Position numbers and translations under genes: made by a program
The notes under the pieces: model-generated
Seen by the model: the letters and a program-made list of their open reading frames with translations, nothing else
Database searches by the model: none
What the model was told of the DNA's origin: nothing
Shown here: in pieces, positions 6,466-27,856 of the stretch
Layout of the letters: each line of letters begins with the position of its first letter
How positions within the stretch are numbered: position 1 is the stretch's first letter
Assembly (NCBI RefSeq): GCF_015841355.1
Contig: NZ_CP064908.1
Span: 124,001-188,000 of the forward strand
Reading direction: 5' to 3'
Length of the DNA stretch: 64,000 nucleotides
DNA from: Synechococcus sp. CBW1107
GTDB taxonomy: Bacteria; Cyanobacteriota; Cyanobacteriia; PCC-6307; Cyanobiaceae

Positions 6466-6521
6466 GGGGCCCTCCAAGGGATCAGTCTCCGCTGTAGATC
6501 CGCGCCGGGCTCTCTGGAGCA

Positions 6522-8135
6522 TCAGCGTGGTGGAGCGTCACCGACTGGGTGGGGACCACGGCGGGAGCGCCGCTGCGCCCAGGCCGCCGCCGCGAACACC
6601 GCCGCCATCACCAGATAGCCGAGAGCCCAGTCGGCACCGGTGCCCCAGCCCAGATTCAGGACGGTGTCGGCGGGCGTGAAACGCCAGGCGTGGATCAGCC
6701 CGAACCAGGAGCCGGCAGCCGCCAGGAGCCCGCAGGCCGAGGCCGCCAGGAAGCGCTGCTCGATCACGTACACCAGCAGAGCTGAGAGCAACATCGCCGC
6801 CACGATCTGCCCCTGCTCGAGGGCGAAGGCTCCCGCCGCCCAGACGTCGGCCTGCTGCAGCGGCAGCAGCAGCGCGGGCCCGAAGGGTGGCCCCGCCCCG
6901 CCGGCGCCACCGGCCCGCAGCCCGGCTTTGAGCAGCAGGGCACCCCAGCCCGCCAGCCCCGGCAGCATGCCCAGCACCACGGCCGGAGCGTGGGCCGCAG
7001 GGGTGGCCTGGAAGCACTGGGCGGCGATCACGATGCCGATGTAGAGCACGATCGCCATCCCGGCCTCGATCGGCACCAGCTGGCCCATCAACCCGAACAG
7101 GCCGAACAGGCAGCCCAGGCCCATCAGCAGCCCGTTCAGCCAGGAGTAGCCGATCCTGGCGCCCATCCCCTTCCAGCCGGGATGGCCGATGTAGATGGTG
7201 GTGGGGAAGCAGGAGCCCAGCAGCGCCGCCGCGATCGTGCCCACGCCATTGATCAGCAGCGATCCCTTCACGGGATAGCGGTCGCCGGCGGCCTCGGCGC
7301 TCTCCAGGTTCTGCAGTGATCCGAGGATGTTGAACAGTCCCATCGGCACGATCACGCCGATCCAGGGCAGCAGCTGGTCACGGGCCTGCCAGAGAGCCCC
7401 CAGCTGAAGCCTGGGTGGATGCCAGCCCACCTGGGCGGCATTGGCCTGCCAGCTGATGGGATCCAGCCGCAGCAAGCCAGTGGCCGCGGCCAGGGCGATG
7501 CCGAGCAGCACCGCCAGCAGGCCGCCTGGGATGGGCAGGCGCAGGTTCCCGTAGTAGGTGAGCAGGATCACCGCCAGCACCGCCAGCCCCACGACGGGAT
7601 GGGCGTAGGTGCGCAGCAGGAAGCCCAGGGCGATGTAGCCCAGGGCGATGCCGGCCAGGGTGGAGAGCAGGGCGGCCCGCGGCAGCCAGCGGCGCAGTCC
7701 TCCCACGCACCAGGCCCCCGCCGATTCGATCAGCCCCGAGCCCAGGCAGGCCATCAGTCCCGCCTGCCAAGAGAGTCTGACGGCCTCGGCATCACTCAGA
7801 CCCTGACCGAGGGCCGTGAGCTTCACCGGCAGCATCACCAGGAACACATAGGCGAACAGGCTCACCGTGTTGATGCCGTAGGGCAGGGCGGTGCGGTCGG
7901 AGCGGCGCTCCACCCGGCCGAGTCGATGGGCCTGCCAGGCGTAGGCGGCATTGCCCACCACGAGGCTCATGCCTGTGGCCGGCAGGATCACCCCGAAGAT
8001 CAGGCCGTCGGGGTAACCCAGCACGCCCCGGCAGAGGCCGAGGATCAGCAGGATCTGGATCAGGTTGTCCAGTCCGAGTCCAAGCAGCCCGTCCCAGTCG
8101 CCGGGCACCAGCCAGCGGGGTCCCCTCTCGTCCAT
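6522..8135 (-). CDS. NCS2-family permease (xanthine/uracil/AzgA-like)
   Basis: 537 aa from the ATG at 8135, preceded by AAGGGG as ribosome-binding site. About 12-14 hydrophobic segments. NCS2-like features include the N-terminal VPGDWDGLLGLGLDNLIQ region, a Q/N-rich transmembrane motif around NILGSLQNLESAEAAGD (as in AzgA-type carriers) and the GSCFPTTIYIGHPGWK segment. It probably imports a purine, pyrimidine or related base; specificity cannot be read. It is the first gene of the block leading to rdgB, which handles deaminated purine nucleotides. That association is suggestive only. Confidence 0.85.
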   Translation of the reverse strand: MDERGPRWLVPGDWDGLLGLGLDNLIQILLILGLCRGVLGYPDGLIFGVILPATGMSLVVGNAAYAWQAHRLGRVERRSDRTALPYGINTVSLFAYVFLVMLPVKLTALGQGLSDAEAVRLSWQAGLMACLGSGLIESAGAWCVGGLRRWLPRAALLSTLAGIALGYIALGFLLRTYAHPVVGLAVLAVILLTYYGNLRLPIPGGLLAVLLGIALAAATGLLRLDPISWQANAAQVGWHPPRLQLGALWQARDQLLPWIGVIVPMGLFNILGSLQNLESAEAAGDRYPVKGSLLINGVGTIAAALLGSCFPTTIYIGHPGWKGMGARIGYSWLNGLLMGLGCLFGLFGLMGQLVPIEAGMAIVLYIGIVIAAQCFQATPAAHAPAVVLGMLPGLAGWGALLLKAGLRAGGAGGAGPPFGPALLLPLQQADVWAAGAFALEQGQIVAAMLLSALLVYVIEQRFLAASACGLLAAAGSWFGLIHAWRFTPADTVLNLGWGTGADWALGYLVMAAVFAAAAWAQRRSRRGPHPVGDAPPR

Positions 8136-8266
8136 GGCTCTGGCCCCTTGCTGGCCCCATGATCCTGTAGGCAGGACAGACGGCTGTGAATCCTTGTGAC
8201 CCTGACGGTTCCGCTCCCCTTCCATCCCTGAGGTTCAGGGCTGGAATCCCCTCCTGAAGGGCCGCG

Positions 8267-11107
8267 ATGGAGTTTCTGCTGGCGCTGCTCGCCCTGACCG
8301 GGCTGACGCTCCTGCTGCTGGTGCTGCTGCTGGCGGTGCTCGGTCTGGGCTGGCTGCTGAAGCGAAGCCAGCGGGGGACCATCGGTGGGGCGATCGCTGA
8401 GGAGCTGCTGCAACGGCTGGACAGGCTCGAGGCGCGGTTGGAGCGGCTGGAGGGATTGGAGGTCCGGCAGGCGCCCGAGGGCGGCTTGGTCTCAGCAGGG
8501 GTGAGGCCACCCAGGGTGTCGCCGGCACCGCCCCCGGTGTCAGCCTCACCCCCTGCTCCGGCACCCTCCGGGGCTCCATCCCGGAATCCGTCAGTCGTCA
8601 AGCGGCTGGAGCAGGGGATCGAGAACTGGACCGGACGGCTGGGGGCTGCCGCGGTGGTGGCCGGAGTCACCTTCCTGCTGCTGCACAGCGCCTACCGGCT
8701 GGAGCCCGCCCAGCGTTTCCTGCTCACCCTGCTGGCGGCGGCGGCCCTGGCGGGGCTCTCCCTCTGGCTGGCCCGATGGCCCAGCTGGCGGGAGCTCTCC
8801 GAATGGATCCGCAGCGCCGCCGGGGCCATCGCCCTGCTGGCCTGCGCCGCGGCAGGGGGATTGCCTGGGCTGGGGCTGCAGTGGATCGACCAGCCTCTGC
8901 CCGCCCTGGCGATTCTGCTGCTGGGCATCGGCCTCAACCTGCTGCTGGCCTGGCGATCACGGCGTCAGGCCCTGGCCGCCGCCCACGTGGTGCTCTCGCT
9001 GGTGCCCCTGGCGATCGTGCCCCCCTCGGCGATGGCCCTGGTGCTCGCCGGCGCCATCGCCCTGATCGGCCTCGGCCTGGCCCAGCAGCGCCGCTGGGAC
9101 GGGGAGCTGCTCAGCGTGAGCGGGGCCGCGGCGCTCCACCACTGGTTCTGGTATGCGCAGACCGATCTGCCCTTCCGCAACGAGGACCTGCGCCCCGTCG
9201 GACTGGCCGCCGCCGTGGTGGTGTTCGGAGCCGGCGTGCTGGTGGTGCATGGGCAACGGGCCCGGTCCGGCTCCTTCAACCTGCTGCCGCTGCTGGCCCT
9301 GCTCACCAACTGGATGGCCCTGGCCCTGGCCTTGCTGGCCTATCCCGCCGGCCCGGTGGGCCGGGCCCTGAGCTGCGTTCTGGCGGCCCTGCTGGCCGCG
9401 GGGCTGGCCCACCGGGCCGGCCGCGGCGGCGTGGCCTGGCTGCAGCGGTCCGAGCAGCTGATCGCCCAGGTGCTGGTGATCAGCGCCCTCTTCAGCCTCG
9501 GACCGCTGCTGGCCAACGGACTGCTGCTGCTGCTGGCGGTGCTCCTGGCCTGCCTGGTGTTCCTGCGGATCTCGAGCACTGACGCCGACAGCTGGTGGCC
9601 CAGGATCAGCTGGGGTCTGAGCCTGGGCTTCGGAGTGGTGCTGGCCCTGGTGGGCCTGATCCCGGCGATCGGACCCAATGGCAGCCAGAACGCCACCATC
9701 CTGCTGCTGGGGGCAGGGGCGGCGGCGGCCACCTCGGTGGATCTGAAACGGGCCCGGCCAAGCCTGGGCTGGCTCAGCGGCGGGCTGGTGGTCAGCGCCG
9801 CGGTGCAGGCCCTGGCGGGCGGTTGGATGGAGTGGCTGGCGCTGGCGGCGCTGGCAGCGATGGTGGTGCTGGCGAAGCGCGTGCGGGCACCCGGGGTACT
9901 GGCGGGCGCCCAGGCCGCTGGCGTGATGGTGCACGGGCTGGCCTGGCTGAATCTGCTGCTGGCGTCCCCCTGGCCTGCCGGCGCCGTGAGCCTGCGCCTG
10001 CTGCCCCTTCTGCTGCTGGCGGGGTTGTTGCTGAAGGCCGCAGCCAGGGGGCGGGCTCGCCACGCCGCCATCGTGCTGCTGGCGGTGGATCTGGGGGTGG
10101 CCGCCCAGCTGCTGCTCGCTCCGCTCTCGCCGCTGCTGCCCGCTTCGGTCTGGTTGCTGCTGGCGCTCCCCCTGGCGGATCTGGCGAAGCGGAGCCCGGC
10201 GCGAAGGGCACGCACCCTGCTGCTGGTGGGTGCGGGCTACCTGCTGGCGGTGCTGGTGGTCTGGCCCGTCTGGGTGCTGCCATCGACGGCACAGCTCGGG
10301 CTGATGCTCTGGAGATGGCCCCTGGAAGGGCTGGGCCTGGCGGTGCTGCTGCGCTGGTGGCGGATCAGCCGGCAGGAGCCCCTGAGCGCCTACCCCGGCT
10401 GGAGGCAGCTGCGCCCCTGCCTGCTGGAAGCTGTCCTGCTGACGCTCAACCTGATCCTGCTCTGGGAGCTGTCCCCTGCCGCGCTGACCCTGGCCTGGGC
10501 CGCTCTGGCCCTGCTGCTGATCAACCGCTGGGCCAACCGCGTCCTCGAGCCGCGGGGGAGGCTCTATGCCCTGCCGATCAGCTGGCTCGGACTGCTGCAG
10601 CTGGTGTTCGCCCTGCGCAGCCTGCGCCTTGACGGAGCAGGCTGGGGCGCGGGTGATCAGCTGCTGCTCGGGCTGGCGGTCCTGCTGCAGATCGTCTTCG
10701 TGGTGGTGCAGCACCGCCAGGTCCCCGTGGAGGCCATCGCCGTCCCGGGAGCTGCGGCTGGTCCCACGGCCCTGCTGCAGCGTCTGGAGGGTCAGCGGCT
10801 CGCGGCCATTGATCTGCCGATGCTGGCGGGGCTCGCCCTGGCGATCTACTGGCGCTTCGATGCCGGCCTGCTGACGCTGCTCTGGTCGGCCCAGGCGTTC
10901 CTGGTGTTCTGCCTGGGGGCCTGGTTGCGCAACAACCCCCTGCGCCATCTGGCCCTGGCGGGACTGGGGCTCTGTCTGCTGCGGCTGCTGGTGATCGACC
11001 TGGCCCGGGCGGATCTGGGCCTGAAGGGAGTGGTGTTCGTGGGGGTGGGGCTGCTGCTGCTGGCGATGAATGCCCTGGTGAACCGCTACAGCGACCGCTT
11101 CGGCTGA
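8267..11107 (+). CDS. Large polytopic membrane protein, DUF2339-like
   Basis: 946 aa from an ATG at 8267. One N-terminal transmembrane helix is followed by a coiled-coil-prone stretch (QRLDRLEARLERLEGLE), a Pro/Ala/Ser linker (residues about 75-110), then some 25 hydrophobic segments. The start of the polytopic part (WTGRLGAAAVVAGVTFLLLHSAYR) resembles the DUF2339 family of predicted membrane proteins. Function unknown. The C-terminal LRLLVIDLARADLGLKGVVFVGVGLLLL segment is typical of the family end. It is divergent from the NCS2 permease (131 bp) and convergent with the nitroreductase. Confidence 0.8.
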   Translation: MEFLLALLALTGLTLLLLVLLLAVLGLGWLLKRSQRGTIGGAIAEELLQRLDRLEARLERLEGLEVRQAPEGGLVSAGVRPPRVSPAPPPVSASPPAPAPSGAPSRNPSVVKRLEQGIENWTGRLGAAAVVAGVTFLLLHSAYRLEPAQRFLLTLLAAAALAGLSLWLARWPSWRELSEWIRSAAGAIALLACAAAGGLPGLGLQWIDQPLPALAILLLGIGLNLLLAWRSRRQALAAAHVVLSLVPLAIVPPSAMALVLAGAIALIGLGLAQQRRWDGELLSVSGAAALHHWFWYAQTDLPFRNEDLRPVGLAAAVVVFGAGVLVVHGQRARSGSFNLLPLLALLTNWMALALALLAYPAGPVGRALSCVLAALLAAGLAHRAGRGGVAWLQRSEQLIAQVLVISALFSLGPLLANGLLLLLAVLLACLVFLRISSTDADSWWPRISWGLSLGFGVVLALVGLIPAIGPNGSQNATILLLGAGAAAATSVDLKRARPSLGWLSGGLVVSAAVQALAGGWMEWLALAALAAMVVLAKRVRAPGVLAGAQAAGVMVHGLAWLNLLLASPWPAGAVSLRLLPLLLLAGLLLKAAARGRARHAAIVLLAVDLGVAAQLLLAPLSPLLPASVWLLLALPLADLAKRSPARRARTLLLVGAGYLLAVLVVWPVWVLPSTAQLGLMLWRWPLEGLGLAVLLRWWRISRQEPLSAYPGWRQLRPCLLEAVLLTLNLILLWELSPAALTLAWAALALLLINRWANRVLEPRGRLYALPISWLGLLQLVFALRSLRLDGAGWGAGDQLLLGLAVLLQIVFVVVQHRQVPVEAIAVPGAAAGPTALLQRLEGQRLAAIDLPMLAGLALAIYWRFDAGLLTLLWSAQAFLVFCLGAWLRNNPLRHLALAGLGLCLLRLLVIDLARADLGLKGVVFVGVGLLLLAMNALVNRYSDRFG

Positions 11108-20643: not shown

Positions 20644-23385
20644 TCAGCTGTGCAGCGAGCGCATCAGGCTCTGAAGATGGCGGCTCTCGAGCTGCAGCAC
20701 CCGGCGGGCGAACTCGGGGTCGCGCTCCAGCACCGCATCGAAGCCATCCACCGGCACCGCCAGCAACCGGGTTCCCTCCGTCTCCGCCACGATCGTGTTC
20801 TCCGAGGCGCTGTGGCTGAGCACCTCGAGCTCATCGAGCACCTGGCCGGGACGGAGAGGCTCGAGGCGCACGCCTCCGGCCTCCTGGTAACGGACCGCGG
20901 CCCGTCCGGCGATCAGCAGCAGCAGTTCACGGCAGGTGTCGCCGGTTTCGGTGATCAGCTCGCCGGCGCCGAAACGGCGCAGCTCCGAGGCTGCGGCCAG
21001 CTGCTCCAGGCTGGCGTGACTGGTGCCCCTGAAGAAATCACTGGCGGCCAGGTGGGCGCGCATCTCCAGCTCCGGCAGATCCACGAGCTCAGGCAGCGGC
21101 GCTGCTGGCTGGATCACGGCCCTGATCACCTCCGCCAGCGGCACGGGCGCTGTGGCGGGATCGAGGCCGCTGGCCAGCAGGCGGGCGCGGCCGGGATCAA
21201 GCCTGGCCAGCAGGAAGAGGGCGGCGGCCCGCAGCAGCGGCGTGCGCTCCTGCAGCAGATCCTCCAGGCTGGAGAGGGTGTCGGCGAGGGGACAGGCCGG
21301 CGGCTCAGGCGCGGCTCCTGACGGCTCCTGCTGCAGCAGCGCCAGCACCGGCGCAGAGAGTTGCGGCTCCCAGTCGCCTTCGGCCAGCAGCTCGGGCAGG
21401 TTCACCGGCCGGAGGGCGCGAAGCCTGGCGGCCCACTGCAGCGCTTCCGGCTGCTCCTTCAGCTCAGAGAGAACGCCCAGCATGGCGCGCAGGCTCAGGT
21501 CCTGGCGCTGCAAGAGGGAGTCGGCGAGGAGATCACGGACCAGAGGCTGATCCGCCAGCACCGGCTGCAGCAGGCTCACTCGGGCATGCCTCAGCTCAGA
21601 GAAGCGCGGCAGCATGGCCTCCAGCTTCTGCAGGGCACTGGTGCTGGGGGCGAGGCCTTCCAGCACGCTGGCCTCTTCATCCGGGGTGATCGAATACTGG
21701 TTGCGCAGGCTGCGGATCACCTCGGGATCGGCCTGGCGGCTCTTGAGCAGCATCAGCCGCTCGAGCGATTTTGTGTAGCCACTCAGGCGAACCTGATCCT
21801 CGAGGCTGCGACGACCGTCGGGATCCAGCAGGTCGGGGTTCTCCACGCCCACCGATTCGAGCAGCAGGCTGTGCTCCTCGTCGGTGATGCCGATCTCGCG
21901 CCGCATCTGGCTCAGCACCTCCAGACTGCTGGAGGCATTGGCGTAGCCCTCCTGCAGCGCCTCGCGCACCACCTCCTTGTAGACCTGCTGACGTTTCTCG
22001 CGGGTGAAGCCCGGCAGCACCTTGGCGAGCACATAGACCTCGTGGGGGCTGAGGTCGGCCAGCTGACGGCCATCGAGGTAGCGCCCCACATCGAGATCGA
22101 GCTTCTCCAGCTGGCGGCGGAAGCGGCTGGCCAGGTTCTCGCGCTGGTGCAGATCGGCGCTGCGCTCCCAGGAGCGGTAGAGCCAGAGGCTGCTCACCGC
22201 CACCACCACGGCATCGAAGAGGGTCTGCACCCAGGCGGGCATCAGAAGCAGCAGCGGCCGCCCGGAGAAGAGAAAGAAGAAGTTGAACACCAGAAACGTG
22301 GCCACCACGAACACGTGATGACGGCTCCAGCGGCTGCGGCCCTCGATCCAGCGGCCCAGGCGCACCCCCAGCCAGGTGAAGAGCCCGAGCACCAGCGGCA
22401 CCGCCACCAGCCGCGGCACATTCAGGCTCTGGCCGAAGAGGAACAGTCCAGGTCGCAGCAGCAGCGACAACTGATCGCTCTGGCGCAGCCAGGCCCCCGA
22501 GAAGTAGTAGTCCCAGGTGCCGGCGTAGAGGTAGTAGTAGAGGAAATAGCCGACCACCAGGCCCACGTAGGCATAGCGCTCGAAGCTGAACTGCCTGGTG
22601 CTGAGCCGCGTCCAGTACATGCGCTCGGCGTCGATGTCGATGCAGGGCTGCTGGCAGGCCACGCAGGCACTCTGTTCACTGCCGTCGGGGAGCACGGTGC
22701 GGCACATCGACTGGGTGATAGGTGTCTCGCTCAGGTGGGCCTTGCTGCCGAGCAGGCCCGCCGGGGTGGAGTAGACGCTCTGCACCGGCGCCATCGGGCA
22801 GAAGTACTGGCACCAGGCCTTGCCGCCGTAGAGCCAGCCCACGCTGATGGCCGCGGCGATCGTGAACAGCAGCCAGCCGGCCAGCACCAGGCGGTCGGCA
22901 TTGAAGAAGAGGATGCGCCCGCAGAGGCCCACGAACAGCCAGCCGAACTGGAGCTGGGAGTAGTGACGGGCCAGCCAGGAGTCGTCGGCCACCTTGGCCA
23001 GCTGCTGGCGGCGCTCACCGGTGCGCGGGTTGACCTTGGTGCGCTGACGCTGCCGGCCCAGGGCCCGGGGGATCTGGGAGAGGAAGGAGAGCGGGCAGAC
23101 CCGGCGCCAGAGCTCGTGGCCGAACAGCATCAGGATCAGCACCGCCGCCGGCACCACCACCCCCCAGAAGGCGGTGGTGCCGAGGGGATAGGGGGTCTCG
23201 CTGAGGCAGACGCCCTGCACCGGAATGCAGGTGTCGGGCAGGCGCAGGGGACTCCAGGGGTGATCCGCCTCGGTGAAGCGGGGCGTCCAGGGGTCGTAGA
23301 AGAGCGAGGCGATGATCAGCAGCCAGGCACTGGTGAGAATCCAGCGGATGCCATGCATCCGTGCCTCAGACACCTCAAAGGCCAT
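20644..23385 (-). CDS. Polytopic 4Fe-4S membrane protein with C-terminal cyclic-nucleotide-binding-like domain
   Basis: 913 aa from the ATG at 23385; a second ATG at 23358 is possible. The N-terminal half has about 8-9 transmembrane helices and NapH/NosR/CcoG-like cysteine motifs: RRVCPLSF, WCQYFCPMAP and a CVACQQPC cluster, enough for Fe-S binding near the membrane. The middle (about residues 420-800) is a long soluble helical region, probably involved in assembly or sensing. The last roughly 110 residues look like a Crp-type beta-roll (RRFGAGELITETGD...LLLIAGRAAVRY), but the phosphate-binding cassette is degenerate: LDELEVLSHSASENTIVAE lacks the usual GE and PRxA residues. A redox-sensing or electron-transfer role is an inference. 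Confidence 0.8.
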   Translation of the reverse strand: MAFEVSEARMHGIRWILTSAWLLIIASLFYDPWTPRFTEADHPWSPLRLPDTCIPVQGVCLSETPYPLGTTAFWGVVVPAAVLILMLFGHELWRRVCPLSFLSQIPRALGRQRQRTKVNPRTGERRQQLAKVADDSWLARHYSQLQFGWLFVGLCGRILFFNADRLVLAGWLLFTIAAAISVGWLYGGKAWCQYFCPMAPVQSVYSTPAGLLGSKAHLSETPITQSMCRTVLPDGSEQSACVACQQPCIDIDAERMYWTRLSTRQFSFERYAYVGLVVGYFLYYYLYAGTWDYYFSGAWLRQSDQLSLLLRPGLFLFGQSLNVPRLVAVPLVLGLFTWLGVRLGRWIEGRSRWSRHHVFVVATFLVFNFFFLFSGRPLLLLMPAWVQTLFDAVVVAVSSLWLYRSWERSADLHQRENLASRFRRQLEKLDLDVGRYLDGRQLADLSPHEVYVLAKVLPGFTREKRQQVYKEVVREALQEGYANASSSLEVLSQMRREIGITDEEHSLLLESVGVENPDLLDPDGRRSLEDQVRLSGYTKSLERLMLLKSRQADPEVIRSLRNQYSITPDEEASVLEGLAPSTSALQKLEAMLPRFSELRHARVSLLQPVLADQPLVRDLLADSLLQRQDLSLRAMLGVLSELKEQPEALQWAARLRALRPVNLPELLAEGDWEPQLSAPVLALLQQEPSGAAPEPPACPLADTLSSLEDLLQERTPLLRAAALFLLARLDPGRARLLASGLDPATAPVPLAEVIRAVIQPAAPLPELVDLPELEMRAHLAASDFFRGTSHASLEQLAAASELRRFGAGELITETGDTCRELLLLIAGRAAVRYQEAGGVRLEPLRPGQVLDELEVLSHSASENTIVAETEGTRLLAVPVDGFDAVLERDPEFARRVLQLESRHLQSLMRSLHS

Positions 23386-24163
23386 CAGGCGGGGCCACAC
23401 TGGCGCGAACCCTAGATCGACCGCCCTGACCCTGCCTGCCTGCCGCCGCTGCCGTGCCCTGCCAGCCGTTCTGAGCCTGGCGCTGGTGGTGCTGCCAGCC
23501 CTGCTGTCCCGTGCCCTGGCCCAACCTGCGGCGGCCACGATCCCCCTGCCGGACCCCCGGGGCCAGACCCTGCTGCTGCAGAGCGTCGATCGCGCCGACT
23601 ACGGACCGCTGGCGGAGCAGTTCCTCACCCAGGCCAACCTGGCCTACTGCGGCGTGGCCAGCATGGTGATGGTGCTCAACAGCCTGGCGGTGCCGGCCCC
23701 GGCAGCGGCGGGGTACGGAAGCTACCGCTTCTGGACCCAGGAGAACGTGTTCGAGGCCGCCGCCACCAGGGCGGTGCTGAGCCCTGAGGTGGTGGCCCGC
23801 CAGGGGATGACCCTGCAGGAGCTGGGGGACCTGCTGGTCAGCCATGGGCTGCAGGCCCGGGCGATCCACGGCGATCGGCTGAGCCTTCCCCAGTTCCGCC
23901 TGCTGGTGCGCAGCAACCTCAGCCAGAGCCGTGATCGCCTGCTGGTGAACTACGACCGCAAGGCCCTGGGCCAGGCCGGCGGCGGCCACATCTCCCCGCT
24001 GGCCGCCTACAACGCCGCCACGGATCGGGTGCTGATCCTGGATGTGGCCCGCTACCGCTACCCATCGGTGTGGGTGCCCCTGGCGGATCTCTGGCAGGCG
24101 ATCCGCACCACCGACCGCAGCTCGGGCCGCAGCCGCGGCGTGGTGGTGGTGCGGCGGATCTGA
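23348..24163 (+). CDS. Secreted phytochelatin-synthase-like (C83) cysteine peptidase
   Basis: 271 aa from the ATG at 23348, which overlaps the divergent Fe-S gene start. No ATG/GTG/TTG start lies between here and the signal peptide, so the true start could be non-standard. Hydrophobic signal segment ends near ALAQPAAA. The catalytic triad of the phytochelatin synthase N-domain is complete: Cys in LAYCGVASMVMVLNSL, His in GGGHISPLAAYN, Asp in LILDVARYRYPSVWV. Bacterial single-domain members (for example from Nostoc) mainly hydrolyse glutathione to gamma-Glu-Cys with little synthase activity. Export would put it in the periplasm. It precedes two cell-wall hydrolase genes on the same strand. Confidence 0.85.
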   Translation: MPCIRASDTSKAIRRGHTGANPRSTALTLPACRRCRALPAVLSLALVVLPALLSRALAQPAAATIPLPDPRGQTLLLQSVDRADYGPLAEQFLTQANLAYCGVASMVMVLNSLAVPAPAAAGYGSYRFWTQENVFEAAATRAVLSPEVVARQGMTLQELGDLLVSHGLQARAIHGDRLSLPQFRLLVRSNLSQSRDRLLVNYDRKALGQAGGGHISPLAAYNAATDRVLILDVARYRYPSVWVPLADLWQAIRTTDRSSGRSRGVVVVRRI

Positions 24164-24200
24164 GGGCGTTACAACGCGTCGGTCTGCACCGCCACGGTCC

Positions 24201-25025
24201 GTGGCGACACGGCCTGTGCTGCGCCCGACGGCCCCTGCCCGCTTCCAGCTGAACCCGGCGAGGCGGCTGCTCCCCCTGCTGGGCGCACTCTGTGGTGCCG
24301 CCCTGATCCACATGCCCCCAGCCAGCGCCGTGCCGCTGATCCCCGACTCGGCCAGCGGCGCGGGCTCTGAAGACGAGACCTGGACTGAGGCCATTCGGCA
24401 GCAGCCAGGCGATGGTCCACCGGCGGCGGCCCTGCTGGCGCCGCTTCCTCTGGCCCCCGGGTCTCCTGAGGCGCCCCCCAGGCCCGAGCGGCCGGCAACG
24501 GTTCCCGCTCAGGTGGCGGTGGGCGATCTTGTCCTCGAAGGTCAACCGCCGGGGCCTGGCGAGGCTGCCGCCAGGCCGCCAGAGCCGCTGCATTACCCCC
24601 TGGCCCGCCCCGCCAGCGAGCAGGACCCCTGGGGCTGGCGTTACGCGAGAGCCGGCGGGGCCTGGCGCATGCACACCGGTGTGGATCTGGTCGCGCCTGA
24701 GGGCACCGCCGTGCTGGCCGTGAACGGGGGCCGGGTGCAGCGGGTCGATGTGATTTCGGGCTATGGCCTCACGGTGCTGATCGACCACGGTGGCGGCTGG
24801 TCGAGCCTCTATGCCCACCTGCTGGAGGCCAGCGTGAGCGCGGGCGAGAGCCTGCGGGCCGGGCAGCCCCTGGGTCTGGTGGGCCAGAGCGGCAATGCCA
24901 GCGGCCCGCACCTGCATCTGGAGCTGCGCCAGCGGCAGCCGCAGGGACTGGTGGCGGTGGACCCCACACCGCTGCTGCCCGCGCCTCCCTCCGCTGGTCC
25001 CATCGCCGGTGACCTGCGCCCCTGA
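24201..25025 (+). CDS. Secreted M23 (LytM) family metallopeptidase
   Basis: 274 aa from a GTG at 24201. N-terminal hydrophobic signal (LLPLLGALCGAALI), a Pro/Ala/Glu-rich linker of roughly 100 residues, then the LytM domain: MHTGVDLVAPEGTAVLAV with the Zn ligands His and Asp, a YGLTVLIDHGGGWSSLYAHL block, and the catalytic SGPHLHLELR with HxH. All Zn ligands are present, so it should be an active peptidoglycan endopeptidase (or act on another peptide) in the periplasm. It is 37 bp after the C83 peptidase gene. Confidence 0.9.
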   Translation: MATRPVLRPTAPARFQLNPARRLLPLLGALCGAALIHMPPASAVPLIPDSASGAGSEDETWTEAIRQQPGDGPPAAALLAPLPLAPGSPEAPPRPERPATVPAQVAVGDLVLEGQPPGPGEAAARPPEPLHYPLARPASEQDPWGWRYARAGGAWRMHTGVDLVAPEGTAVLAVNGGRVQRVDVISGYGLTVLIDHGGGWSSLYAHLLEASVSAGESLRAGQPLGLVGQSGNASGPHLHLELRQRQPQGLVAVDPTPLLPAPPSAGPIAGDLRP

Positions 25026-26326: not shown

Positions 26327-26831
26327 TCAGGCCGAGCGTGCGCTCACAGCGCCGCAGGCCCTCGGCGCAGTCACCCCGCATCAGCAATCCGGCGCCGCCC
26401 CAGAGCAGCCGTTGCGGCAGATCGAGGGCTCCCGCACCCAGCTCCCGCAAGGGCTCGAAGCCCAGCCGGCGGAAGTAGCGCACCAGGCGGCGGTGCTGGT
26501 GCTCGTCGTCGCGGATGGCCAGCAGCGCGGCGCGGCGGCAGGGGGTGTGCTCCAGCGCCCAGGCGAAGGTGGCGGCCCAGATCAGCGGACCCACCAGGGC
26601 TGCGGCCGGCTCGCCGCGCGGCACCTGGATGCGCAGGGTGTCGAGATGGAGGCCATCGGGCAGCGGAATCGCCCAGCCCTTGAGCTCCCCCAGCAGCTGG
26701 GGGCCGCCCTCGGGGCCACGGCGGGCCACCCCCACCCGCAGCCCCCGCAGCGCCGCCGGCCCGCTCACCTGCAGGCGCAGCAGCAACCCCTGTGACGCTC
26801 CCCACACCTCCAGCTCCGCCAGGTGGCTCAT
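26292..26831 (-). CDS. GNAT-like conserved hypothetical protein
   Basis: 179 aa. The segment CRRAALLAIRDDEHQHRRLVRYFRRLGFEPLRELG looks like the acetyl-CoA-binding loop and final beta-bulge region of a GNAT acetyltransferase. The N-terminal half is less typical (LRLQVSGPAALRGLRVGVARRGPEGG). Function unknown; a divergent GNAT fold is a fair guess. It overlaps the GST-DUF952 stop by 4 nt (ATGA) and is the last gene of the lysA-cdaA-uppS-bioB block. Confidence 0.6.
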   Translation of the reverse strand: MSHLAELEVWGASQGLLLRLQVSGPAALRGLRVGVARRGPEGGPQLLGELKGWAIPLPDGLHLDTLRIQVPRGEPAAALVGPLIWAATFAWALEHTPCRRAALLAIRDDEHQHRRLVRYFRRLGFEPLRELGAGALDLPQRLLWGGAGLLMRGDCAEGLRRCERTLGLITAAPPAGSAG

Positions 26832-27856
26832 GCGGGGAACGGCTCCCAGGCCAGCACCGTCTCCAGGGGCAGGGGGCCCCGGATGTGGGGGAAGAGCTCG
26901 CCGCTGCCGGGGGCCGGCTCCTCCTCCACCTCAATGCCGGCCGCCGCGAGGCGCCCGGGATCGATCGTGAGCAGCAGCACATCGGCCGCATCGGCATAGA
27001 AGCGCTGGTGGGTGGCCTCGAGCTGATGGCTGTGGCTCGCGTGGATGAAGCCCACGTCCTCCAGGCTCAGGCCGCGGCTGGAGCGGCGGTAGATCCCCTC
27101 GCACTTGGCGGCGCGCCATTCCGGTGCCAGGGCCAGGTGATACAGCCAGCGCGGCGAGCGCCAGGCGGCTCGCAGTGCCCAGGGCGGGGCCATCACCGCC
27201 GCCAGCTCGGGGCTGGCGAGAAACCGCCCCAGCCACGCCTGCACCGCCGTCAGACCCGCTGCGGCCTCGAACCCCTCCGGATCCGCCAGGCGGAACTGGC
27301 GCACAAACGGCAGCAACGCCAGATCCGCCAGGGAGGGCCGCTCCCCCAGCTGGGGCAGCTGCTCATTCCAGGCGCGCAGGATCGTCAGGGCCGCCGCCCG
27401 GTGCTCCTCGGGGTCGGCGCCCGGGTGACGGCCGGCGTACTTGAAGCGGTCGAGATGGTGCTTGAAGGGACCGTCGTTGCTGGCGATCAGCGCCTCGATC
27501 AACGCCCGCTCGGCCGCGTCACCCGATGTGTCGGCCCGCCGCAGCAGATCACCGGGGTCGTGGCGCTCCAGGGCCCAGCGCATCACCGCCAGGCTCTGAT
27601 CGATCACGGAGCCAGCTCCATGGCTCTGGCCTGCTGAGGTGCCATTGGCTGACAGCACCAGCACCGGCACCGTGCCCTTCGCGGAGGCCTCCAGCAGTTC
27701 GGGGGGCTTGGCCTTCAGGTTCACCTCCCGCAGCTCCAGGTCAGGGCCGGGCCGCACCCCCGCCGCCGCCAGGGCCAGCCGGGCCCGGATCGCATAGGGG
27801 CAGCGGCGGAAGCTGTAGAGGATCGGCCGATCCGCCCTGGGCACAGACCGGATCAC
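26828..27856 (-). CDS. GST-DUF952 fusion protein
   Basis: 342 aa, started by a GTG that overlaps the previous stop (GTGA). Residues 1 to about 235 form a glutathione S-transferase: LYSFRRCPYAIRARLALAAAG, a GTVPVLVL cis-Pro region, a VIDQSLAVMRW segment and an all-helical C-domain. The last roughly 105 residues are a DUF952 domain: RWLYHLALAPEWRAAKCEGIYRR, EDVGFIHASHSHQLEATHQRFY, VLLLTIDPGRL and FPHIRGPLPLETVLAWEPF. DUF952 usually stands alone in small proteins of unknown activity. The fusion suggests a thiol-conjugation or detoxification role, as an inference. Confidence 0.85.
   Translation of the reverse strand: MIRSVPRADRPILYSFRRCPYAIRARLALAAAGVRPGPDLELREVNLKAKPPELLEASAKGTVPVLVLSANGTSAGQSHGAGSVIDQSLAVMRWALERHDPGDLLRRADTSGDAAERALIEALIASNDGPFKHHLDRFKYAGRHPGADPEEHRAAALTILRAWNEQLPQLGERPSLADLALLPFVRQFRLADPEGFEAAAGLTAVQAWLGRFLASPELAAVMAPPWALRAAWRSPRWLYHLALAPEWRAAKCEGIYRRSSRGLSLEDVGFIHASHSHQLEATHQRFYADAADVLLLTIDPGRLAAAGIEVEEEPAPGSGELFPHIRGPLPLETVLAWEPFPA

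Follow-up and report, generated by a model that had tools for sequence, protein, structure and literature searches.

The 64,000-nt stretch of Synechococcus sp. CBW1107 analysed here (contig NZ_CP064908.1, positions 124,001 to 188,000; referred to as the window) carries a minus-strand gene, 23385..20644, in which a membrane half with conserved cysteines is joined to a C-terminal cyclic nucleotide-binding (CNB) domain of unusual ligand cassette. The question raised by this locus is what such a domain could sense and what it could control. Our preferred reading, held with moderate confidence, is that the product is a membrane protein for electron transfer, distantly similar to NapH, which is gated by a sensor that can be exchanged, and that this sensor has a non-canonical pocket in the lineage of the window protein, termed type A.

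The frame encodes 913 amino acids and a stop codon. Orthologues are present in many cyanobacteria, and the window genome gave a single match to the membrane half, that is, one copy of the gene. The longest open reading frame reported by the program begins further upstream, with a GTG at 23538. Similarity among the orthologues extends through the Met at 23385, which is the likely start codon, as in a first-pass annotation of this DNA; the alternative M10 serves as start in some orthologue rows. In our scripts the Met closest to that of the window protein was taken as the start of each orthologue.

Pfam recognised cNMP_binding (PF00027) at residues 803-889 (E 3e-10) and, just under the threshold, a 4Fe-4S match at residues 170-202. 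An AlphaFold2 model based on the alignment of 72 orthologues (mean predicted local distance difference test score, pLDDT, 71; predicted template modelling score, pTM, 0.47) shows eight membrane-type helices followed by a helical middle and a CNB beta-roll. Foldseek matched the CNB part of the model to the CNB domain 5jiz (TMt 0.72) and to CAP (4ev0_A, TMt 0.51). Full-length fold searches returned mostly CNB-bearing and transporter chains with overall template modelling (TM) scores near 0.1, and for this reason the CNB-sized matches alone were used. A PDB sequence search at E<=1 gave 18 distinct sequences, 15 of them on the CNB part; the remaining three were Rab chains (E 0.63-0.84) and were taken as chance matches. 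The helical middle and the Crp-like beta-roll described in the first-pass annotation are thus borne out. The features of the gene are as follows.

20644..23385, minus strand: whole gene, 913 amino acids and stop, type A (start by orthologue similarity, M10 possible)
22111..23385, minus strand: membrane half, residues 1-425, eight predicted transmembrane helices, NapH-like core (model, positive-inside charges, NapH profile match)
23206..23229, minus strand: C53...C60, predicted outside (alignments and topology)
23092..23109, minus strand: WRRVCP, residues 93-98, reduced first CX3CP motif with C97-P alone kept (alignment, NapH profile)
22795..22812, minus strand: CQYFCP, residues 192-197, second CX3CP motif (alignment, NapH profile)
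22642..22704, minus strand: C228-X12-C241-X2-C244-X3-C248, probable ligand set of a single [4Fe-4S] cluster, cytosolic side (invariant in 24/24 and 68/68 rows)
21046..22110, minus strand: helical middle, residues 426-780, its first part common to many family members (model, alignments)
20671..21033, minus strand: CNB beta-roll and C-terminal helices, residues 785-905 (Pfam, model, Foldseek)
20932..20934, minus strand: C818, invariant Cys of the type A CNB domain (alignment)
20785..20847, minus strand: non-canonical ligand cassette, residues 847-867, with D851-E852 and with S861 at the Arg position (alignment)

The type A ligand cassette

Canonical CNB domains carry a phosphate-binding GE...R cassette, and the first-pass annotation had stated that neither the Gly-Glu nor the Arg is present in the window protein. 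We aligned the window protein with 71 of 74 long loci, which are 54-92% identical to it. Fragments of less than 800 amino acids were removed by script, and three loci were left out by hand (L108, in which the motif is present, and L164 and L168, in which the cassette is unreadable in frame). The rows were taken from the best 80 of 453 relatives, and the set therefore favours close relatives. BLAST matches below 200 bits were dropped before rows were counted. The cassette reads L-D-E-L in all 72 proteins. Position 851 is Asp and position 852 is Glu in 72/72 rows, so that the Gly is exchanged for Asp and the Glu is retained. At position 861, the Arg site, Ser (59), Thr (7), Ala (3), Val (2) and Leu (1) were found, and Arg in none of the 72. 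The same holds after reduction to 51 sequences of less than 90% identity (Asp in 51, Glu in 51, no Arg). Hence the Arg is indeed absent, whereas the Glu had been overlooked: D851-E852 fills the Gly-Glu site and the Gly alone is replaced. A standard GE/R pair in a shifted position was not found in the 72-row alignment.

Among the 51 rows of less than 90% identity column conservation averages 0.831 for the cassette, against 0.733 for the remainder of the CNB domain. C818 is Cys in all 72 type A rows and in none of the 16 rows of the type B paralogue. The motif LDELEVL is shared by the plasmid orthologues of Synechocystis PCC 6714, where the plasmid is pSYLB, and Leptolyngbya BL0902, and a more distant pair of members (L199 and L200) has Asn-Glu and lacks the Arg. 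The type B paralogue, which is 31-35% identical and belongs to the same taxonomic family, retains GE...R in 11/16 rows as read by eye; so do the members L176, L177 and L188. As a control we read other CNB domains of the window genome, which has 12 CNB matches, eight of them obtained as loci. Of the seven domains other than that of the window gene, four (L001, L002, L003 and L005) have both GE and Arg.

A cassette kept in 72/72 rows at 54-92% identity is not due to chance. As the same cassette recurs across relatives in the phylum and the paralogue keeps GE...R, the type A site is a conserved alternative and not a product of decay. Degenerate CNB domains are common, and the gene could be regarded as an ordinary decayed CNB fusion without special meaning; in view of the identical motif in 72 orthologues, which come from many groups of cyanobacteria, and of the invariant cysteines described below we consider this very improbable. 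The loss of the canonical cassette together with strict conservation of another form points to an altered function rather than an inactive site. In this respect the proposal of the first-pass annotation, that the domain binds something else or nothing, stands in a narrower form: the canonical cassette is missing throughout, and what has replaced it is conserved. The invariant C818 in the beta-roll leaves room for the redox sensing that the same annotation suggested.

Could the type A domain still bind a cyclic or related nucleotide through E852 and other contacts? The retained Glu would allow it, GE...R is kept in the paralogue and in the three members named above, and two plasmid orthologues are annotated as 'cyclic nucleotide-binding domain-containing protein'. 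With the Arg gone in 72/72 rows and an Asp added beside the Glu, a phosphate site is unlikely. Type A CNB domains should consequently not bind cyclic AMP or cyclic GMP in the usual way, and binding of a cyclic or related nucleotide seems improbable to us. Compared with the CNB domains of CRP and of the PKA/PKG type, the type A domain has the same fold and matches the same Pfam model, but it has Asp-Glu for Gly-Glu, no Arg, an invariant Cys and a fusion to a redox-type membrane half.

The membrane half and its cysteines

Seven cysteines of the membrane half (C97, C192, C196, C228, C241, C244 and C248) are invariant in 24/24 divergent members, rhizobial proteins included, and also in 68/68 rows of the tree described below. 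Across the 47 rows of types A and B nine cysteines are invariant. C53 and C60 are missing in four aligned rhizobial rows and in L047, L184 and L187. The cysteine sets listed in the first-pass annotation (C97-P, C192xxxC196-P and C241xxC244xxxC248) therefore do not vary freely among relatives, and C228 has to be added to them. The charge pattern fits the positive-inside rule with a predicted topology in which the seven invariant cysteines and the C-terminus are cytosolic and C53 and C60 lie outside.

An hhalign comparison with eight NapH or NapH-like proteins gave a probability of 92.4 and an E value of 5.3e-7 over residues 69-257. In this alignment C97 and C192/C196 are paired with the C-P cysteines of NapH. 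The NCBIfam NapH models score the window protein far under their cut-offs. The first CX3CP motif is reduced to W-X3-C-P in 24/24 rows, the second being intact, and there is one four-Cys set (CX12CX2CX3C in the window protein) as against two in the NapH rows. Because of these two differences we regard the window protein as NapH-like and not as NapH. The four-Cys set probably ligates one [4Fe-4S] cluster at the cytosolic side, as judged from its invariance and the predicted topology, and the remaining three of the seven cysteines would belong to the C-P motifs.

The NapH/NosR/RdhC membrane module thus has in common with the window family the aligned C-P cysteines, the surrounding membrane segments and cysteines of the cytosolic Fe-S type. 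The window family differs from it by a first motif limited to C-P, a single four-Cys set and eight predicted transmembrane helices; the window protein also has a long regulatory C-terminus, and nap or nos genes were not recognised beside it. The passages on RdhC in PMC5928378 describe a four-segment module common to RdhC, NapH and NosR and CX3CP motifs without assigned function, and they report a proposal that the membrane part of NapH oxidises quinol.

Exchangeable C-terminal domains and a linked reductase

We searched 386 genomes sampled from the phylum for the membrane half. It was found in 54, with strong matches in 50; the other four matches were marginal (E 2e-4 to 8e-4) and not counted. 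All matches fall in the class of the window genome. BLAST probes sorted 149 distinct members by their C-terminal domain into CNB (107), none (27), EF-hand (9), CNB with FHA (5) and ferredoxin (1). In these counts type A is over-represented through the way in which the loci were fetched, and the class without a domain contains some fragments at contig edges as well as a few CNB tails that have diverged. Ten examples were scanned with Pfam, which recognised FHA with CNB in five, CNB alone in one, EF-hand pairs (EF-hand_7) in three and Fer2 in one, the last being L184, where the family member is fused to a [2Fe-2S] ferredoxin.

On a tree of 68 rows the architecture changes 11 times, where the minimum would be 4 and shuffling gave a mean of 26.1; all CNB forms, types A and B included, were treated here as one architecture; kept separate they give 15 changes, and without the rows lacking a domain 5 are counted. 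These numbers of domain swaps are rough, since the tree has many open forks and long branches. The CNB-with-FHA form taken alone is not clearly clustered (58 of 500 shuffles were as low). The window protein groups with the other type A rows in a supported set.

Some unusual forms were observed among the members. Two short membrane-only forms lie between genes that by eye resemble those for urease subunits (L075 3569-8046 and L076 3712-8000). In L073 a type B gene is split into adjacent frames, 6510-7700 and 7738-9237, corresponding to a membrane half and a regulatory half. RTX calcium-repeat proteins are encoded beside family members on two rhizobial plasmids (L212 8704-9513 and L216 8639-9490) and on a plasmid of Leptolyngbya boryana (L219 12378-13511).

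We considered whether the type A CNB domain might be ligand-free, serving as a structural or dimerisation domain with the conserved cassette as a protein-protein surface. Every type A row has lost both the Gly and the Arg of the phosphate site, and in 27 of the 149 members, with the reservation given above, no C-terminal domain was recognised at all. The cassette is nevertheless more conserved than the rest of its domain, and undoubted sensor-type domains occupy the same place in relatives. This possibility is the strongest competitor of a sensing role, though we regard it as rather unlikely.

The first-pass annotation had noted that no redox partner gene is adjacent. This is true in the window, but at 12 intact loci, all of them from relatives other than type A, the family gene is followed directly downstream, in the same orientation, by the gene for a reductase with NAD(P)H, FAD and [2Fe-2S] domains. 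Ten of them have the domain order FHA-FAD-NAD-Fer2 (L169, L171, L175, L177, L178, L183, L185, L187, L214 and L219), and in two rhizobial loci (L210 and L211) the FHA domain is lacking. Pfam supports the partner in full at eight of the 12 loci and without the first (FHA) part at L169; L183, L185 and L187 rest on BLAST. At a thirteenth locus, L221, a broken membrane gene adjoins the reductase. The A. fabrum records H5 and H6 encode one and the same protein, and H6 was left out of the locus count. On the rhizobial plasmids the partner is like an HCR-type NAD(P)H oxidoreductase in its FAD, NAD and [2Fe-2S] domains, whereas the cyanobacterial partner carries an N-terminal FHA domain. Of the 386 genomes, 14 have a strong reductase match, and every one of these belongs to the 50 that bear the family (Fisher p 6e-14). 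The reductase is linked to the family gene in nine of these 14 genomes, one of them having the broken L221, and is unlinked in five.

Genome G509 has the FHA reductase twice, and no family gene was recognised beside its second copy (L220 7542-9035). At L214 (8094-9995) and L219 (7127-8995) a Ser/Thr kinase with WD40-type repeats lies directly upstream of the family gene and FHA reductase, which fits a control by phospho-threonine. In L176 and L221 a gene for a plant-type ferredoxin adjoins the family gene, and in L114 one lies downstream of the type A gene.

From these observations the following mechanism is proposed. The window gene would encode a member of an as yet unnamed family of membrane proteins for electron transfer, found mainly in cyanobacteria. 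The membrane module would take electrons from a cytosolic [2Fe-2S] donor and pass them into or across the membrane. We infer that the donor is a [2Fe-2S] protein in general: in the relatives presumably the linked reductase, and in the window lineage, where no reductase gene is found, photosynthetic ferredoxin as the most likely candidate. Together with the C-terminal domain, the helical middle would form an exchangeable regulatory arm, with CNB, FHA plus CNB, or EF-hands. In type A the CNB domain would have an old non-canonical pocket and might respond to a ligand of another kind, act via a partner protein or use C818 for signalling. The suggestion that the beta-roll could gate electron transfer is in this way supported indirectly, by architecture and context: the same membrane module occurs in relatives with EF-hands, with FHA plus CNB and with an adjacent reductase. 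The original observation is real and sharper than stated. If the mechanism is correct, the annotation 'cyclic nucleotide-binding' hides a regulated redox device that does not read cyclic nucleotides in the usual way, and the swaps of calcium, phospho-threonine and CNB sensors on one membrane core offer a direct test of how bacterial membrane electron flow is gated.

Several points weigh against this mechanism. No type A locus examined shows the reductase in its flanks, and the window genome is without a reductase match at E<=1e-20. Two genomes with a type-A-like cassette, G459 and G498, do have the reductase, in unlinked position. In 36 of the 50 genomes that bear the family a strong reductase match is missing, among them eight in which the EF-hand form alone was seen. 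The Fisher test ignores phylogeny, and the 14 genomes represent six taxonomic families. The limit for a strong match (E<=1.1e-93) was fixed after the list had been seen, although the gap is wide, the next best match having 1e-30; at E<=1e-20 there are 28 genomes with matches, 16 of which carry the family, and the additional 14 genomes contribute partial matches only. The tree, a quick one, leaves 23 forks open among its 65 inner branches and has some long branches. The EF-hand and FHA domains could serve localisation instead of gating. The cysteine loop is modelled at pLDDT <50. Finally, the membrane half alone found no match at E<=0.001 in a PDB fold search (best VIA-align Z 2.8), which does not imply a new fold.

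The cysteine-rich NapH/CcoG-like core also permits the view that the protein is a reductase for iron or copper, or an assembly factor like CcoG, and not a component of an electron-transfer chain. A phytochelatin synthase gene next to the window gene would agree with this. The CcoG/RdxA/FixG model gives no significant match (E 0.32; its cut-off is 316.7 bits and the score 9.9 bits), oxidase or copper genes were not recognised beside family members in the loci read, and the linkage to the reductase better fits electron flow. We judge a metal-related role to be a minor possibility.

A more far-reaching variant of the proposed electron transfer is that the family corresponds to the NADPH oxidases in a bacterial, haem-free form, by which electrons from NAD(P)H or photosynthetic ferredoxin would leave the cytosol and reach oxygen or peroxide beyond it under the control of a sensor; by analogy it is conceivable, and we give it little weight. 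It would combine a [2Fe-2S] donor and a membrane Fe-S module with plug-in sensors for calcium, phospho-threonine or CNB ligands. The eukaryotic NOX5 and DUOX are alike in logic only, having an NAD(P)H-FAD donor, a membrane electron path and EF-hands. The window family has cysteines in place of haem and a separate donor protein, and its EF-hand forms were not seen beside the reductase. Scanning with Pfam gave no haem-binding ferric-reductase domain, either in the window protein (E up to 1) or in ten relatives (E up to 0.01).

Genes that may bear on the electron acceptor were seen near some of the family-reductase pairs. SodC is encoded within two genes of the pair in L169 and L171, domains of the vanadium-peroxidase type in L187 (DUF6851 and VCPO_2nd) and L185 (DUF6851 alone, in part), and in L210 and L211 a di-haem cytochrome c peroxidase of divergent sequence. 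In the other six linked loci no SodC or peroxidase-type gene was recognised, mostly by eye or from the annotation. Since both loci of each pair are related, these are three observations at most, and they motivate the comparison with NADPH oxidases rather than establish it. Were this comparison to hold, type A would be a light-fed, signal-gated electron export valve and a candidate exporter behind extracellular electron flow and superoxide release of cyanobacteria. In algae, an export of electrons driven by NADPH oxidase is described in PMC10444202 and PMC5016757.

In the literature searched, most subscription journals lying outside its scope, no description of the family was found. A term search of two reviews on cyanobacterial second messengers did not find the phrase 'cyclic nucleotide-binding'. 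In Synechocystis PCC 6803, slr0593 may be a member, though we do not rely on it. A table in PMC3516471 lists slr0593, there called 'cAMP binding membrane protein', with its antisense RNA among the transcripts that fall early in iron deprivation.

Surroundings of the window gene

The genes near the window gene encode, according to Pfam, GAPDH, a glutamate symporter, a phytochelatin synthase and an M23 peptidase; a neighbour of 78 amino acids gave no Pfam match. The phytochelatin synthase gene is divergent (23465-24160, plus strand; PF05023, E 5.5e-67) and is followed by the M23 peptidase gene at 24093-25022. The GAPDH and glutamate-symporter genes recur beside type A in the genus of the window and in L057. 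The neighbours of type A genes otherwise vary, and no partner emerged from them. Type B genes are often found near alaS-like and helicase-like genes, as named by eye, which was uninformative. Elsewhere in the window, at 26831-27856 on the minus strand, one frame joins a glutathione S-transferase-like part to a DUF952 domain.

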